NCBI RefSeq assembly: GCF_000576555.1
Contig: NZ_CP007145.1
Span: 4,672,501-4,736,500 of the forward strand
Source of the DNA: Hymenobacter swuensis DY53
GTDB lineage: Bacteria > Bacteroidota > Bacteroidia > Cytophagales > Hymenobacteraceae
DNA: 64,000 nt
Reading direction: 5' to 3'
Part shown: positions 36,464 through 42,494 of the stretch, piece by piece
Position numbering within the stretch: position 1 is the first letter of the stretch
Layout of the letters: each line of letters opens with the position of its first letter
Translations under genes and position numbers: made by a program
The notes under the pieces: generated by a model
The model's database searches: none
Seen by the model: only the letters and a program-made list of their open reading frames with translations
Told to the model about the DNA's origin: nothing

Positions 36464-37660
36464 TTATTTCGACTCCGCCAAGCCTTTCTCGATGAGTTGC
36501 AACGCCGGATTATCGGGCTTCATTACCGTGGTCAGCTGCTTTTTGGCTGCCAGGAAGTGCGGCCGGGCCTGTTGGGGCCGCTTGAGCTGCATGTTCAGGA
36601 TGGCCACGTAGAAATGCAGCAGGCCCTGGGGCACCGCCTCTTTAGGCGCGGTGGACAGTTGGCTGCTGAAAAATGCCTCGGCCTCAGCCCACTGATTATT
36701 GGTCTGGTAGATGTCCATGATGTCGTTGAACATCTGGTCATCAGCCGGATTCAGCTGGTAAAGCCTGGTAGCCCAGGAGGCAGCCTCCGCTGAGTGGGCT
36801 GCCACGGCCAACCCCAGCAAGCCCCGTATCGAGGGATAATCGGTGGGGTTCAGGGCCAGGCTTTGCTGGTAAGCGACTTTGGCTTCGACGGGCTTTTGTT
36901 GCTGTTCGTACAGCATGCCCAGCAGGCGGGCGGCATCGGCTTGGCGGCGGGGCTCGGCAGCGTACAGGTCGTAGGCAGTTGTGGCGTGTGGCAGGCCTTC
37001 AGCCGATTTTTTCAGCAGCCACAGCGCGTACGCCAGGTTGTAGTGCGAGTTCGGGTAATCGGCCTTAAGGGCTACCGACTTCTCAAAAGCCACCGAGGCA
37101 GCGGCGGGTTGGTCACGCAGCAGTTGCGCGTAGCCCACTCCGAAGTAGGAGCTATAGTCGGCCTGCCCGTGGGCGTGGGCCGCGTTGTAGTAGCGCAGCA
37201 CCAGATCCAGCTTCTGCTCCTCGGACTTATCCTGCTCCCCGCACCCGCACGAAAGCACCGCGTACCAATAGTCGCCGAGGCCTTTGCTGAGGGCGTAGTT
37301 GGCGGGGTACTTCCGTTGCAGGCGGTTGAGTTCCAGCGGCAGGTTCAGCAGGTGCATGGAGTAGTCGCCCTCTTTGCCGCGGAGCTGCTCCACGGTTTCG
37401 GTGGGCTTGAGGTTGCGCAGGCCAAAGCCCTGAAAGTTCAGACTGATGAGGTAGTTATCCAGCAAGAGCTTTTCCTTAGCCAACAGCACTTCGGGCAACT
37501 GATTTTTGGGGTCAGCCTTGTCCAGTACCTCAAAGGCCGATTGGTATTTTTTCTCCTGCGTAAGTTGGGCGGCCTGAGCCAGGTCCGAAGCAACCGGTGT
37601 CTGGGCCAGGCCCGGTCGCACTGTCAGAGCCAATACGGCAAGTGGCAGATAAAAACGCAT
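36464..37660 (-). CDS. Secreted TPR-repeat protein (paralogue of the one at 42711)
   Basis: A 398-residue protein. Signal peptide MRFYLPLAVLALTVRPGLAQ. At least five TPR-like helical pairs, including NSHYNLAYALWLLKKSAEG and KVAYQQSLALNPTDYPSI. The N-terminal half is closely matched by the 261-residue protein at 42711-43496: both have FRNLK, a GDY block with a C-x-C pair (CGC here, CDC there) and AHAHGQxDYxSYF. Periplasmic or surface scaffold; partners unknown. It is divergent from the aromatic operon leader. Confidence 0.8.
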   Translation of the reverse strand: MRFYLPLAVLALTVRPGLAQTPVASDLAQAAQLTQEKKYQSAFEVLDKADPKNQLPEVLLAKEKLLLDNYLISLNFQGFGLRNLKPTETVEQLRGKEGDYSMHLLNLPLELNRLQRKYPANYALSKGLGDYWYAVLSCGCGEQDKSEEQKLDLVLRYYNAAHAHGQADYSSYFGVGYAQLLRDQPAAASVAFEKSVALKADYPNSHYNLAYALWLLKKSAEGLPHATTAYDLYAAEPRRQADAARLLGMLYEQQQKPVEAKVAYQQSLALNPTDYPSIRGLLGLAVAAHSAEAASWATRLYQLNPADDQMFNDIMDIYQTNNQWAEAEAFFSSQLSTAPKEAVPQGLLHFYVAILNMQLKRPQQARPHFLAAKKQLTTVMKPDNPALQLIEKGLAESK

Positions 37661-37761
37661 CTATCAATGAGTTATCAGATTGAGAACAGGGCGCGGATAC
37701 GGGGTCGGCAACCAAGCGGAAAGATGCAGGTTTTCCCACAAAATCTACTGACAAACAAACA

Positions 37762-37793
37762 GTTGTTCGGGCGTTTTTTGCATTTTTTATTTG
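37762..37793 (+). promoter_or_regulatory. Candidate promoter of the aromatic amino acid operon
   Basis: GTTG (37762-37765), a 20-base spacer, and TTTATTTG (37786-37793), one mismatch from TAnnTTTG, predict a start near 37800, about 45 bases before the first leader peptide. Confidence 0.4.
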
Positions 37794-37844
37794 GAATTTC
37801 CGGCGACCGGTCCCACCTTGCCGCCGTTAAAACGCCCGACACGC

Positions 37845-37904
37845 ATGGCTCAGCCCACGGCCCGCTTCTTTTTTAGCTATTACTTCTACTACGCCACCAC
37901 GTAG
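37845..37904 (+). CDS. Leader peptide 1 of the aromatic operon (Phe/Tyr attenuator)
   Basis: A 19-codon ORF encoding MAQPTARFFFSYYFYYATT. Eight of the nine residues 8-16 are Phe or Tyr (four each), the hallmark of ribosome-mediated attenuation by charged tRNA supply. Phe and Tyr are both end products of the downstream operon. The stop codon TAG (37902-37904) abuts the antiterminator segment, and a terminator follows 40 bases later. A small 6-bp hairpin (ACTACG 37888-37893 with CGTAGT 37900-37905) could be the 1:2 pause stem. No Shine-Dalgarno is seen, which is normal in this phylum. Confidence 0.75.
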   Translation: MAQPTARFFFSYYFYYATT

Positions 37905-37957
37905 TCGAGCGGCCTCCCTGTAGCCTTCCTAACCCGAACTCTTCAGCGCCTCTCGAC
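37904..37957 (+). promoter_or_regulatory. Antiterminator of attenuator 1
   Basis: GTCGAGCGGC (37904-37913, starting at the last base of the leader stop codon) pairs with GCCTCTCGAC (37948-37957), 9 of 10 positions. The second segment overlaps the 5' arm of terminator 1, so the two structures exclude each other. A ribosome stalled on the Phe/Tyr codons leaves 37904-37913 free; a ribosome at the stop codon covers it. Confidence 0.7.
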
Positions 37958-37979
37958 AACTTCGGGAGGCGCTTTTTTT
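37945..37979 (+). terminator. Attenuator terminator 1
   Basis: AGCGCCTCTCGA (37945-37956) pairs with TCGGGAGGCGCT (37962-37973), 12 bp with one G-U, loop CAACT, followed by seven T residues. Confidence 0.85.
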
Positions 37980-37996
37980 ACGCTCAATCTGCCCTG

Positions 37997-38077
37997 ATGC
38001 CCGCTTGCAGCTTCTTTTATTACGGCTACTGCTACTTCTTCTTTCTGAAGAGGCCGGGCCCGGTTTGCCGAAGCTGA
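37997..38077 (+). CDS. Leader peptide 2 of the aromatic operon (Phe/Tyr attenuator)
   Basis: A 26-codon ORF. Residues 5-16 read SFFYYGYCYFFF: five Phe and four Tyr in twelve residues, followed by a basic tail and a TGA stop (38075-38077). It starts 18 bases after the T-tract of terminator 1, so it is translated only from transcripts that escape the first attenuator. The control codons (38012-38044) lie just upstream of the antiterminator segment 38056-38066. The same DNA in the pheA frame reads as poly-Leu, which explains the misleading upstream extension of the pheA frame. Confidence 0.78.
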   Translation: MPACSFFYYGYCYFFFLKRPGPVCRS

Positions 38078-38110
38078 CTTATCCGCAGCCATCCAGCAAA
38101 ACCAGGGCCC
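38056..38110 (+). promoter_or_regulatory. Antiterminator of attenuator 2
   Basis: GGGCCCGGTTT (38056-38066) pairs over 11 bp with AAACC plus GGGCCC (38099-38110), with one bulged A (38104). The second segment overlaps the 5' arm of terminator 2. The first segment begins 11 bases past the last Phe codon and ends 8 bases before the leader stop codon, so a ribosome finishing the leader would mask it. Confidence 0.75.
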
Positions 38111-38132
38111 CGCACACCGGAGGCCCTTTTTT
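38104..38132 (+). terminator. Attenuator terminator 2
   Basis: AGGGCC (38104-38109) pairs with GGCCCT (38122-38127), extended by CCG/CGG across a bulged A; loop CACAC; six T residues. It ends 22 bases before the pheA start codon. Confidence 0.8.
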
Positions 38133-38154
38133 AGTGTCTTTTTCAGTTCACAGT

Positions 38155-38991
38155 ATGCTTCCCATCGTCGCCATTCAAGGATTTGAAGGTTGTTTCCACC
38201 AGATTGCCGCCCGCCGCCATTTCGGGCCGCAGGTGGCGGTGTTGCCCTGCGCTACGTTTGGGGAAGTAGTGCGGAGCGTTGTGAGCGGAGCAGCCGGCGC
38301 GGCGGTTATGGCCATCGAGAACTCCATTGCCGGCAGCATTCTGCCTAACTACACGCTGCTGCGCAAGGCCGGCCTGCGGGTGGTGGGCGAGGTGTACCTG
38401 CACATCCGGCAGCACCTGATGGCCCTGCCGGGGCAGCAGCTACTGGATATTAAGGAGGTACATTCCCACCCGATGGCGTTGCTGCAGTGCGCCGACTACC
38501 TGGGGCAATACCCGCACTGGAAGCTGGTGGAAACCGAGGATACGGCCCTGAGCGCCCAGCGCATCCGGGAACAGCTGCGGCCGGGCGTGGCGGCCGTAGC
38601 AGGCCAGCTTGCCGCTGAGCTGTTCGACCTGGATATTGTGGCGGGCGACATTCATGAGGAACAGCATAACTACACCCGTTTTCTGGTGCTAATGCGGGCT
38701 GAGGATGCCCCACTGCAACACCACCCCACAAAAGCTTCGCTGTACTTTGAAGCCCCGCACGCCATCGGCAGCCTGGCCCGCATCCTGACGGCCGTGGCCG
38801 GGCAGGGTGTTAATCTGAGCAAGTTGCAGTCGTGTCCGCAACCGGGCCGTACGTGGCACTACTTCTTCCACGCCGACCTGGAATTCGACGCGCCGACGCA
38901 GCTTGCCGCCACGCTGGATGCCTTGGTTCCGCTCACGGAAGGCCTGCAACTGCTGGGCACATATAAGGGAGAAGTGAGTTATGAGAGATGA
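38155..38991 (+). CDS. pheA: Prephenate dehydratase
   Basis: The start is set at 38155 (MLPIVAIQGFEGCFHQIA), the family N-terminus; the 50 in-frame codons upstream overlap leader peptide 2 and terminator 2. 278 residues. Dehydratase domain 1-185 with AIENSIAGS, EVHSHPMALLQC and the catalytic TRF motif (NYTRFLVL). ACT domain about 195-275 (SLARILTAVAGQGVNLSKLQSCP), which normally gives Phe feedback inhibition. It makes phenylpyruvate from prephenate. First gene of the operon, behind two tandem attenuators. Confidence 0.95.
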   Translation: MLPIVAIQGFEGCFHQIAARRHFGPQVAVLPCATFGEVVRSVVSGAAGAAVMAIENSIAGSILPNYTLLRKAGLRVVGEVYLHIRQHLMALPGQQLLDIKEVHSHPMALLQCADYLGQYPHWKLVETEDTALSAQRIREQLRPGVAAVAGQLAAELFDLDIVAGDIHEEQHNYTRFLVLMRAEDAPLQHHPTKASLYFEAPHAIGSLARILTAVAGQGVNLSKLQSCPQPGRTWHYFFHADLEFDAPTQLAATLDALVPLTEGLQLLGTYKGEVSYER

Positions 38992-39103: not shown

Positions 39104-40267
39104 ATGCACGTTGCCAGCCGCCTTCAGCATATTCAGGAATACTACTTCTCGCAGAAGCTGCGCGAGATTGAGGGCCTGAACAAAGCGGGGGCCCAGATCA
39201 TCAACCTGGGCATCGGCAGCCCCGATATGCCGCCGCACCCGAACGTAATTGCGGCCCTGACGGCCGCCGCTCAGCAGCCCAACACCCACGCCTACCAGGG
39301 TTACAAGGGCGTGCCGGCCCTGCGCCAGGCCATGGCCGGCTGGTACCAGCGGCAATACGGCGTAGAGTTGAACCCCGACACGGAAATTCTGCCCCTGCTG
39401 GGCTCCAAGGAAGGCATCATCCACATCAGCATGACGCTGCTGGAGGCCGGCGACGAGGTGCTGATTCCGAACCCGGGCTACCCCGCCTACCGGGCCGCCG
39501 CCCACCTGAGCGGGGCCACGCCCCTCGACTACGACCTGACCGAAGAAAACAACTGGCTGCCCGACCTGGACGCGCTGGCCCGCCGCGACCTGAGCCGGGT
39601 GAAGCTCATGTGGGTGAACTACCCGCATATGCCCACCGGCACGCCCCCTCCGGCCGGCTTCTTCGAGCGGCTGGTAGCTTTTGCCGCCGCCCACGATATC
39701 CTGCTGGTCCACGACAACCCGTACAGCTTCATCCTGAACACCGAGCCGCCCCGCAGCCTGCTGGCGGTACCGGGGGCGCGGGCGGTGGCCCTGGAGCTGA
39801 ATTCCCTGAGCAAGTCGCACAACATGGCGGGCTGGCGGGTGGGTCTGCTGGCCGGCCGCGCCGACGTGCTCCAGGACGTGCTGCGCTTCAAGAGCAACCT
39901 CGACTCGGGAATGTTTCTGCCGGTGCAGCTGGCCGCCGTGGAAGCCCTGAACCTGGACGCCAGCTGGTACGCGGAACTCAACGCCCACTACCGCGCCCGG
40001 CGCACTTTGGTGCTGGAGTTGCTGAAGCTGCTGAAATGCACCGTGGCCCCCAACCAGGTAGGCCTGTTTGTGTGGGCGAAAGTGCCAGCACAGTACCCCG
40101 ACGCTTACGCCCTCAGCGACGAGGTGCTGCGGGCGGCCCGGGTGTTTCTGACGCCGGGCGGCATCTTTGGCAGCAATGGCAACGGCTACATTCGCCTCAG
40201 CCTATGCCAGCCGGTGGAGGTGCTGCAGCAAGCCCTGGCGCGCGTACGAGAGTCTACCGGGCAGTAA
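39104..40267 (+). CDS. PLP-dependent aminotransferase, class I/II
   Basis: A 387-residue protein. Fold type I: GIGSPDMPPHPNV, YQGYKGVPALRQAMAGWY, NPGYPAYRAA, and the Schiff-base Lys in NSLSKSHNMAGWRVG (about residue 236). It resembles aspartate/LL-diaminopimelate-type aminotransferases. Its place between pheA and tyrA points to transamination of phenylpyruvate and 4-hydroxyphenylpyruvate (or prephenate) as the last step to Phe and Tyr. The 112-base gap after pheA holds no strong structure. Confidence 0.88.
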   Translation: MHVASRLQHIQEYYFSQKLREIEGLNKAGAQIINLGIGSPDMPPHPNVIAALTAAAQQPNTHAYQGYKGVPALRQAMAGWYQRQYGVELNPDTEILPLLGSKEGIIHISMTLLEAGDEVLIPNPGYPAYRAAAHLSGATPLDYDLTEENNWLPDLDALARRDLSRVKLMWVNYPHMPTGTPPPAGFFERLVAFAAAHDILLVHDNPYSFILNTEPPRSLLAVPGARAVALELNSLSKSHNMAGWRVGLLAGRADVLQDVLRFKSNLDSGMFLPVQLAAVEALNLDASWYAELNAHYRARRTLVLELLKLLKCTVAPNQVGLFVWAKVPAQYPDAYALSDEVLRAARVFLTPGGIFGSNGNGYIRLSLCQPVEVLQQALARVRESTGQ

Positions 40268-40361: not shown

Positions 40362-41207
40362 ATGGTAGTTACCATCATCGGAATTGGCCTGATTGGCGGG
40401 TCGCTGGCTTTGAGCCTGAAGGAAACCGGCCTGGCCCACCACATCATTGGGGTGGACCGCAGCCCGGACAACCAGCGGCAGGCCGTGGCCCTGGGCCTGA
40501 TTGATGAGCCGGCCCAGGACCTGACTGAGGCCGTGCAGCGTGCCGACCTAGTGGTTGTGGCCGTACCCATGGATGCCATGCTCACGGTGCTGCCCCTGGT
40601 GCTCGACGCAGCTACCGACCGCCAGACGGTTATCGACGTAGGCTCCACCAAGGCCCTGCTGCTGCAGGCCGTGGAGCACCACCCACAGCGCAGCCGCTTC
40701 GTGGCGGTGCACCCGATGGCTGGCACCGAGTACTCAGGCCCCTCGGCGGCGCTGCCGGGTCTGTTCCGGGATAAGACGCTGGTAATCTGTGACGCTCCGC
40801 GCAGCGCCCCCGACGCCGTGGCCCGGGTGGAGGCTGTATTCGGGCGACTGGCCATGCGGCTGGTGTACATGGATGCCACCGCCCACGACCTGCACACGGC
40901 CTACATTTCGCACATTTCGCACATCACCTCCTTTGCCCTGGCCCTCACGGTACTGGAAAAGGAAAAGGAAGACGAGCAGATTTTTGCCCTCGCCAGCGGT
41001 GGTTTCGAGTCGACGGTACGTTTGGCCAAAAGCTCGCCCGATATGTGGGTGCCCATCTTCCGTCAGAACCGCGAGAACGTGCTGGATGTATTGGATGAGC
41101 ACATTCACCAACTCCAGCACCTGCGCGAGCTGCTGCACCAGGAAAACTACCCCGCCGTGTACCAGCAAATTCAGCAGGCCAACCTCATCAAGAAAATTCT
41201 GAAATGA
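40362..41207 (+). CDS. tyrA: Prephenate dehydrogenase
   Basis: A 281-residue protein. NAD-binding GIGLIGGSLALSLKE near the N-terminus, DVGSTKALL, the substrate-binding His in VHPMAGTEYSG, and the helical dimer domain with HDLHTAYISHISHITSFALA. It oxidatively decarboxylates prephenate to 4-hydroxyphenylpyruvate for Tyr. No ACT domain is visible, so feedback control may rest elsewhere (PheA ACT, attenuation). Confidence 0.94.
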   Translation: MVVTIIGIGLIGGSLALSLKETGLAHHIIGVDRSPDNQRQAVALGLIDEPAQDLTEAVQRADLVVVAVPMDAMLTVLPLVLDAATDRQTVIDVGSTKALLLQAVEHHPQRSRFVAVHPMAGTEYSGPSAALPGLFRDKTLVICDAPRSAPDAVARVEAVFGRLAMRLVYMDATAHDLHTAYISHISHITSFALALTVLEKEKEDEQIFALASGGFESTVRLAKSSPDMWVPIFRQNRENVLDVLDEHIHQLQHLRELLHQENYPAVYQQIQQANLIKKILK

Positions 41208-41396: not shown

Positions 41397-42494
41397 ATGG
41401 AACAGCTCCTGACCTCCTCCGCCGACGCGGCCGAAAACCCCAAATTTCTCAAGAAAAAGCCGCTTATCATCTCCGGTCCTTGTTCGGCTGAAACCGAAGA
41501 ACAGCTCATTGCCACCTGCACCCAGCTGGCCGCCACCGGCAAGGTGGATATGCTGCGGGCCGGCATCTGGAAGCCGCGCACCAAGCCGGGCCTGTTCGAG
41601 GGCATAGGGACCAAGGGCCTGCCGTGGCTGCAAAAGGCCAAGCAGCTCACCGGCCTGCCCACTACCGTGGAGGTGGCCACGCCCAAACACGTAGAGGATG
41701 CTCTGGCCTTCGACGTGGACGTACTCTGGATTGGGGCCCGCACCACGGTAAACCCCTTCTCAGTGCAGGCCCTGGCCGATGCGCTACGGGGCGTGGACAT
41801 CCCAGTGTTCATCAAAAACCCCGTGCACCCCGACCTGGAATTGTGGATGGGCGCGGTGGAACGGCTGCAGAAAACCGGCAACCAGAAAATTGGGCTGATT
41901 CACCGAGGCTTCGCCAGCTACGGCAACACGGAATTCCGCAACGCGCCCATGTGGCATTTGCCCATTGAGATGAAGCGCCGCCTACCCGAGCTGCCTATCA
42001 TCTGCGACCCAAGCCACATCTGCGGCAACCGCACCGGCTTGGCTGCCGTGGCCCAGAAAAGCATCGACCTGGATTTCGACGGGCTGATGCTGGAGTCGCA
42101 CATTGACCCCGACAACGCCTGGAGCGACGCCAAGCAGCAGGTGACGCCCCAGCGCCTGGCCGAGCTGCTCGACGGCCTGACCTGGCGCCATGAAACCACC
42201 GACCAGCAGGAGTTCCTTAACAAGCTCAGCCAGCTCCGCGCCCAGATCAACCAGCTCGACGAAGAGATTCTGCACCTGCTGGGCCGCCGCATGCAGGTGG
42301 CCGAGAGCATCGGCAGCTACAAAAAGGAGAATAACATCACCATTCTGCAGGCCAGCCGCTGGAACGAAATCCTGGAGCACGGCATCCAGCAGGGCCAGCG
42401 CCTGGGCCTGACGGAAGACTTCATCCTCAAGTACTTCGACGCCGTCCACTTGGAATCCATCAACCGCCAGAACCGCGTGATGAATCAGAAGTAG
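41397..42494 (+). CDS. Bifunctional DAHP synthase / chorismate mutase
   Basis: A 365-residue protein. DAHP synthase of the KDO8P-synthase-like type at about residues 15-260 (PLIISGPCSAETEEQ, GIWKPRTKPGLFEGIG, VKNP-like FIKNPVHPD, CDPSHICGNR). Chorismate mutase of the AroQ type at about 270-355 (LRAQINQLDEEILHLLGRRMQVAESIGSYKKENN). The mutase is C-terminal, as usual in Bacteroidota. It catalyses the first step of the shikimate route and the branch step to prephenate, so the operon controls both entry to and exit from the aromatic pathway. Last gene of the operon. Confidence 0.95.
   Translation: MEQLLTSSADAAENPKFLKKKPLIISGPCSAETEEQLIATCTQLAATGKVDMLRAGIWKPRTKPGLFEGIGTKGLPWLQKAKQLTGLPTTVEVATPKHVEDALAFDVDVLWIGARTTVNPFSVQALADALRGVDIPVFIKNPVHPDLELWMGAVERLQKTGNQKIGLIHRGFASYGNTEFRNAPMWHLPIEMKRRLPELPIICDPSHICGNRTGLAAVAQKSIDLDFDGLMLESHIDPDNAWSDAKQQVTPQRLAELLDGLTWRHETTDQQEFLNKLSQLRAQINQLDEEILHLLGRRMQVAESIGSYKKENNITILQASRWNEILEHGIQQGQRLGLTEDFILKYFDAVHLESINRQNRVMNQK

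Follow-up and report, generated by a model that had tools for sequence, protein, structure and literature searches.

Attenuation is, in the textbooks, a single-gate device. In the enterobacterial pheA and trp type, a short ORF with control codons is followed by an antiterminator after the codon run and by an intrinsic terminator before the first structural gene. The locus described here, from a stretch of 64,000 nucleotides of Hymenobacter swuensis DY53 (hereafter the window), raises the question of whether two such devices stand one behind the other ahead of a single operon, and of how they would work together. The operon lies on the + strand and comprises pheA, encoding prephenate dehydratase (38155..38991; PF00800, 8.8e-55, the ACT-domain match of the product being under the curated cut-off), a class I/II aminotransferase gene (39104..40267; PF00155, 2.6e-56), tyrA, encoding prephenate dehydrogenase (40362..41207; PF02153, 1.4e-33), and a DAHP synthase/chorismate mutase fusion gene (41397..42494; PF00793, 3.2e-34, and PF01817, 2.7e-21). 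On the other side, a TPR-protein gene is divergent (36464..37660, - strand), and the 494 bases separating its start (37660) from pheA (38155) contain both attenuator units. The order on the + strand is therefore two units, then pheA and three more aromatic-pathway genes. Being on the - strand, the TPR-protein gene cannot own the + strand terminators.

All parts of the two units are on the + strand. Leader ORF 1, MAQPTARFFFSYYFYYATT, spans 37845..37904 and is followed by intrinsic terminator 1 (37945..37979), a hairpin at 37945-37973 (-22.1 kcal/mol, z -6.4) with a T-tract to 37979. Leader ORF 2, MPACSFFYYGYCYFFFLKRPGPVCRS, spans 37997..38077 and is followed by intrinsic terminator 2 (38104..38132), a hairpin at 38104-38127 (-15.7 kcal/mol, z -3.6) with a T-tract to 38132. 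In both leaders the Phe/Tyr run is conserved in relatives. The initial annotation had placed two short ORFs with dense Phe/Tyr runs and two terminators here; the coordinates of the ORFs hold, and folding confirms the hairpins with their T-tracts. A generic terminator scan listed terminator 1 on the + strand, and terminator 2 was absent from its list. The antiterminator strand of unit 1 (37900..37916) overlaps the leader 1 stop codon and pairs with 37945-37961, in a duplex of -17.7 kcal/mol (p 0.005 against shuffled spacers) that encloses the pairing first claimed. The strand of unit 2 (38052..38066) is within the leader 2 ORF. Its claimed pairing, 38056-38066 with 38099-38110, reappears in the minimum-energy fold of 38040-38140. 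Our scripts used a shorter register, 38052-38062 with 38104-38114, and at the window locus the unit 2 duplex amounts to -18.2 kcal/mol (p 0.055 against shuffled spacers). The Phe/Tyr codons of both leaders match the amino-acid product of the downstream operon, and an intrinsic terminator is present between leader and first gene.

Because codons for Phe and Tyr are T-rich, T-rich DNA could read as Phe/Tyr by chance and have unrelated hairpins next to it. A unit was defined as at least six Phe/Tyr making up at least half of a 12-residue stretch, with a terminator within 130 nt. A search of the whole 64 kb window, both strands included, yielded just these two units. When 37780-38154 was shuffled 2000 times with its dinucleotides preserved, one unit arose in 15 shuffles and two units in none. 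The units are also conserved in relatives, in the genus as well as in the wider loci and the phylum sample described below, and the gene upstream is divergent. Chance can hence be set aside with near certainty.

Conservation among congeners, on which the initial annotation had staked its reading, was borne out. A PheA match was present in 107 of 120 Hymenobacter genomes searched, and the upstream region was read in 104; outside these are G100 and G108, with matches at contig ends, and G114 (L288), where a one-unit leader precedes a pheA with a large internal deletion. By script, 79 of the 104 regions had two units and 25 had one. In two further loci both units were recognisable by eye and one by script: L021, in which leader 1 is worn, and L181, in which the leader 2 ORF continues beyond terminator 2 without an intervening stop. 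Including these by-eye calls, the genus total is 81/104 with two units, 23/104 with one, and none without. Both terminators reached -10 kcal/mol or better in 79/79 scripted pairs, and the median content was 4 Phe and 4 Tyr for leader 1, and 5 Phe and 4 Tyr for leader 2. In the Phe/Tyr columns, minority residues were 105 Phe/Tyr versus 29 other among 59 distinct leaders 1, and 95 versus 96 among 73 distinct leaders 2, counts that carry no correction for shared descent. The alignments indicate that Phe and Tyr swap for each other in the leaders while the Phe/Tyr content stays. Compensatory stem changes, expected by the same annotation, were found in part: terminator pairs with two-sided changes numbered 5/11 and 4/9, a modest covariation. 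Three genus genomes without a PheA match (L226, L227, L228) retain the DAHP synthase/chorismate mutase gene, and within 1.5 kb before it no Phe/Tyr leader was found. In L226, the fusion gene adjoins what appears by eye to be the counterpart of the 35532-36434 gene of the window, and neither pheA nor tyrA intervenes.

Do the conserved parts form a switch? In the genus, the antiterminator strand starts at a median of 9 nt (unit 1) and 7 nt (unit 2) past the Phe/Tyr run. An antiterminator exclusive with the terminator and directly past the codon run was individually significant, at p<0.05 against shuffled spacers, in 67/79 loci for unit 1 and 36/79 for unit 2. The same duplex test on the wider set of loci was positive for 15/16 (unit 1) and 16/16 (unit 2) of the tandem loci and for 45/50 single units; L304, a tandem locus met below, lies outside it. 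Antiterminators of the family sample were weak by this measure (3/12 for unit 1, 8/29 for single units). An alignment of unit 1 antiterminators mixes two registers (72% of cells paired, 39-45% when slid), and it was discarded as evidence.

A ribosome was then modelled as a 30-nt mask moved codon by codon over the window locus. The share of the 5' arm held by the upstream strand drops most steeply at the step from codon 15 to codon 16 in each leader, from 0.83 to 0.49 in leader 1 and from 0.70 to 0.51 in leader 2, and this is the end of the run. In the genus, the switch fell no more than two codons from where the Phe/Tyr run ends in 56/79 loci for unit 1 and 56/79 for unit 2, versus 47/237 and 12/237 in the shuffled-spacer control. 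The drop from run to stop codon exceeded 0.3 in 37/79 and 41/79 (24/237 and 23/237 when shuffled), and in 4/79 loci unit 1 changed in the opposite direction. On the complete RNA, moving the ribosome from the run to the stop codon raised the mean terminator probability from 0.68 to 0.94 (unit 1) and from 0.62 to 0.95 (unit 2). At the window locus, terminator 1 stays at 0.98 for every ribosome position in the full equilibrium fold, and equilibrium folding alone fails to show the unit 1 switch there. Since terminator 1 always wins at equilibrium, the model implies that the unit 1 switch must act kinetically, during transcription, and that at this locus its antiterminator must form before the 3' arm is made. 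Even without a ribosome, the 5' arm is for the most part already held by the time the 3' arm is synthesised (means of 0.68 and 0.65), and termination of an untranslated leader is therefore not clearly predicted. The proposal of mutually exclusive antiterminators starting past the control codons is thus supported in silico, by the duplex tests and by ribosome-position folding.

Whether the two units share one transcript depends on where transcription starts. A promoter-like element (TTTGG ... CACCTTG, 37790..37820, + strand) is found 24 nt before leader 1; a sigma-70 promoter scan found none. For scoring we used TTTG/TAnnTTTG, which we take to be the Bacteroidota-type promoter consensus. Within 90 nt ahead of leader 1, scores of at least 8 of 10 were reached at 59/79 scripted tandem genus loci (11 when shuffled). 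One could imagine that a promoter between the units lets unit 2 act alone, on a separate transcript, all the more as unit 2 is self-complete and single units outside the genus share its geometry. However, between the leader 1 stop and the leader 2 start, where the promoter-like score is not enriched (4/79, versus 8 shuffled), such a promoter is quite improbable. Terminator 1 and leader 2 are separated by a median of 24 nt (range 10-39). With a promoter-like site ahead of both units and no enrichment of such sites between them, the units should act in series, and a transcript begun at the predicted upstream site has to get past both terminators before it extends into pheA. As each leader has both Phe and Tyr codons, each gate should open when either amino acid runs short, and the opening of both is required.

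We therefore consider it highly probable that the region encodes two complete ribosome-mediated transcription attenuators of the trp/phe type, arranged one after the other along a single transcript. When Phe-tRNA and Tyr-tRNA are in sufficient supply, a ribosome would clear the run of leader 1 and cover the antiterminator strand, whereupon terminator 1 would form and RNA polymerase would leave. With Phe or Tyr short, the ribosome would stall in the run, the antiterminator would capture the 5' arm of terminator 1, and the polymerase would continue. Passing terminator 2 would then need a second ribosome, stalled on leader 2. We infer in this way that the leaders are translated, that ribosomes stall on them, that transcription ends at both sites and that the read-throughs of the two gates multiply, which would give low basal expression and a steeper response to an operon making both amino acids. 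A sharpening of the response by a double gate is a fair expectation, and we would infer that the benefit of having two gates lies in such effects. The two main proposals of the initial annotation, a serial arrangement of the units and ribosome-mediated attenuation sensing Phe and Tyr, are both strongly supported by comparison and folding. The tandem attenuator is, on the genomic evidence, real and conserved, and its mechanism is well supported in silico.

A different sensor could in principle read the same RNA: the Phe/Tyr-rich peptides themselves might act, as passages on peTrpL describe leader peptides working in trans in other systems, or the RNA might respond to Tyr or Phe as a T-box or a protein-bound element. 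Such sensing is very improbable here, since Phe and Tyr exchange freely at steady Phe/Tyr content, the switch follows the end of the codon run, and no Rfam match reaches the gathering score. The Rfam library presumably includes leader-peptide, T-box and Bacteroidetes motifs; over 37600-38250, with matches accepted to E 10, nine were listed and none was at gathering score, the best having 24.7 bits versus 41 (suhB). An NCBIfam scan of both leader peptides gave no match.

How far does the arrangement extend beyond Hymenobacter? In the family sample (40 loci fetched of 61 further PheA matches), 12/40 had two units and 28/40 had one. A wider set of PheA matches held 80 loci, of which 69 were counted, L031-L040 and L066 being excluded as repeats of genus genomes. 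It contains a Chitinophaga clade of 19 loci with both leaders in 18/18 readable ones, and both terminators by script in 17; the unreadable locus, L043, has a sequence that ends 118 bases upstream. The other 50 loci comprised 49 with one unit and L094, which ends 178 bases upstream. In an order sample of 30 loci chosen by E-value, 22 were without leader, four of one other family had a short single leader, and the remaining four repeat family members with one unit. In a phylum sample of 40 loci, picked for family diversity among 257 matches, a Phe/Tyr leader was present in 24, 23 of these with a terminator by script, and absent from 16; one locus of another family, L304, was tandem. Overall, tandem pheA loci number 81 + 12 + 18 + 1 = 112, and single Phe/Tyr attenuators ahead of pheA are, judging from these leaders, common in this part of Bacteroidota.

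Some loci of these samples deserve separate mention. Within the Chitinophaga clade, the leader 1 run of L042, L045 and further loci also has a Trp codon (FFWYQ or alike), and this gate may respond to Trp as well as to Phe and Tyr. At L047, a third unit was called whose antiterminator did no better than shuffles, and it was taken as noise. L054 comes from a record titled Beijerinckiaceae, yet its PheA and leader cluster with Bacteroidota; it is probably a misplaced contig.

Single units are thus frequent, in 23/104 congeners and in most of the other relatives examined, and one member of a pair can be degraded, as leader 1 is worn in L021 and the leader 2 ORF extends past terminator 2 in L181. 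This would suit a locus at which just one unit regulates, the other being a leftover or a fixed leaky terminator. However, in the 79 scripted pairs both units retain their Phe/Tyr run, terminator and switch geometry, and pairs are found in other groups too, so that we hold a single working unit to be unlikely and retain two attenuators acting in series.

The two members of a pair differ in a regular manner. Leader 1 ends sooner after its Phe/Tyr run than leader 2 in 105/107 scripted pairs (77/79 in the genus, 16/16 in the wider set, 3/3 and 9/9 in two family groups). Relative to the stop codon, group medians of the antiterminator start are -3 to 0 for unit 1 and -18 to -27, inside the ORF, for unit 2. 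Single units outside the genus resemble unit 2 in this geometry (medians -18 and -27). The 23 one-unit genus loci have a 17-residue leader in 17 cases and a 25-residue leader in six; in two of the latter, L003 and L016, the antiterminator strand is inside the ORF. The length rule is compatible both with inheritance of a short-plus-long pair from a common ancestor and with a division of labour between the leaders. With less assurance than for the series arrangement itself, we think it rather likely that the locus is a widely kept two-stage gate, in which units with the same signal multiply, geometries differ by rule and each unit has a distinct job.

The PheA tree distributes the tandem rows among separate groups. 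We had expected the tandem to have arisen several times independently, and this was not shown: constraining the tandem rows to one clade was not rejected (p-AU 0.0515, on a 57-row subset that leaves out the one-unit genus rows). One tandem origin followed by losses is possible. The tree has 8 state changes with L061 labelled as one-unit; terminator 1 of this locus, with its short T-tract, was missed by script, and the right label should lower the count. Among the rows listed, the window PheA has 53-58% identity to Chitinophaga versus 38-44% to the own-family genera g2, g4 and g5; it has 59-67% identity to the own-family genus g6. Operon and leaders may have moved between lineages.

Is doubling a general habit of this genome? 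For the trp genes there is one attenuator-like leader, ahead of trpE: MNLQAWWWPYGESGRDSLCVR (L290:1283-1348), with a strong terminator (L290 1379-1406) and no Rfam match at gathering score. An upstream ORF rich in His precedes hisG (L291:1024-1152, ending KHHHHHGHHSSF), and the script found no terminator before the gene; this is perhaps a His leader of another type. For ilvD no convincing leader was found. Among the four operons viewed (pheA, trp, hisG, ilvD), the doubled unit is confined to pheA.

In our limited literature search, no published case came up of two amino-acid attenuators that stand in series and share one signal. If confirmed, the 112 pheA loci would be the first class to be described of tandem amino-acid attenuators with the same signal at both gates. 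They also extend leader-peptide attenuation of pheA to several Bacteroidota families, in which, within the same limited search, it is little described. With one-gate relatives in the genus and a series gate for one signal, the system can be used to probe what a second gate adds; possible gains are less leak, a steeper response or different thresholds, which could be compared via the leaders of close species.

Compared with the enterobacterial pheA and trp attenuators, the units described here are alike in having control codons for the product, an antiterminator after the codon run and a terminator before the first gene. They differ in forming two full units in series with mixed Phe and Tyr codons, in the antiterminator strand of unit 2 being inside the ORF, and in the Bacteroidota-type promoter-like site.

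Within the phylum, the initial annotation knew of no Phe/Tyr attenuator. This was too wide, as passages of one report describe a structured 5' element upstream of pheA, without Rfam hit, in Flavobacterium psychrophilum and other Flavobacteriaceae, and suggest leader-peptide attenuation for amino-acid operons of F. psychrophilum (PMC9723704). That element resembles ours in being a structured region 5' of pheA; the passages in question describe neither a tandem attenuator nor codons. A Bacteroidetes RNA motif named for trp, Bacteroid-trp, is given in part of another work (PMC2864571); unlike it, neither the window locus nor the genome's trp leader has an Rfam match at gathering score. The rimP-leader, according to the passages seen in its description, has a second tandem terminator and a potential antiterminator (PMC2965389), a likeness to our locus; it differs in the gene concerned, and those passages name no leader peptide for it. 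The same source, writing in 2010, presents its Firmicutes case as the first leader peptide, so far as its authors knew, to be shown outside Proteobacteria and Actinobacteria (PMC2965389).

The closest parallel is Salmonella mgtCBR, whose tandem leader-ORF attenuators mgtM and mgtP respond, according to passages of PMC3641672, to ATP and proline signals in an additive way. The statement that no tandem leader-peptide attenuators were known was accordingly too broad. As described in those passages, mgtCBR has, as here, a single leader with two ORFs whose attenuators follow one another, and one of its two ORFs stalls on charged-tRNA shortage, as we propose for both of ours. Unlike mgtCBR, with its distinct signals and with hairpins said in the same passages not to resemble intrinsic terminators (PMC3641672), the Hymenobacter locus has Phe and Tyr codons in both leaders and an intrinsic terminator in both units.
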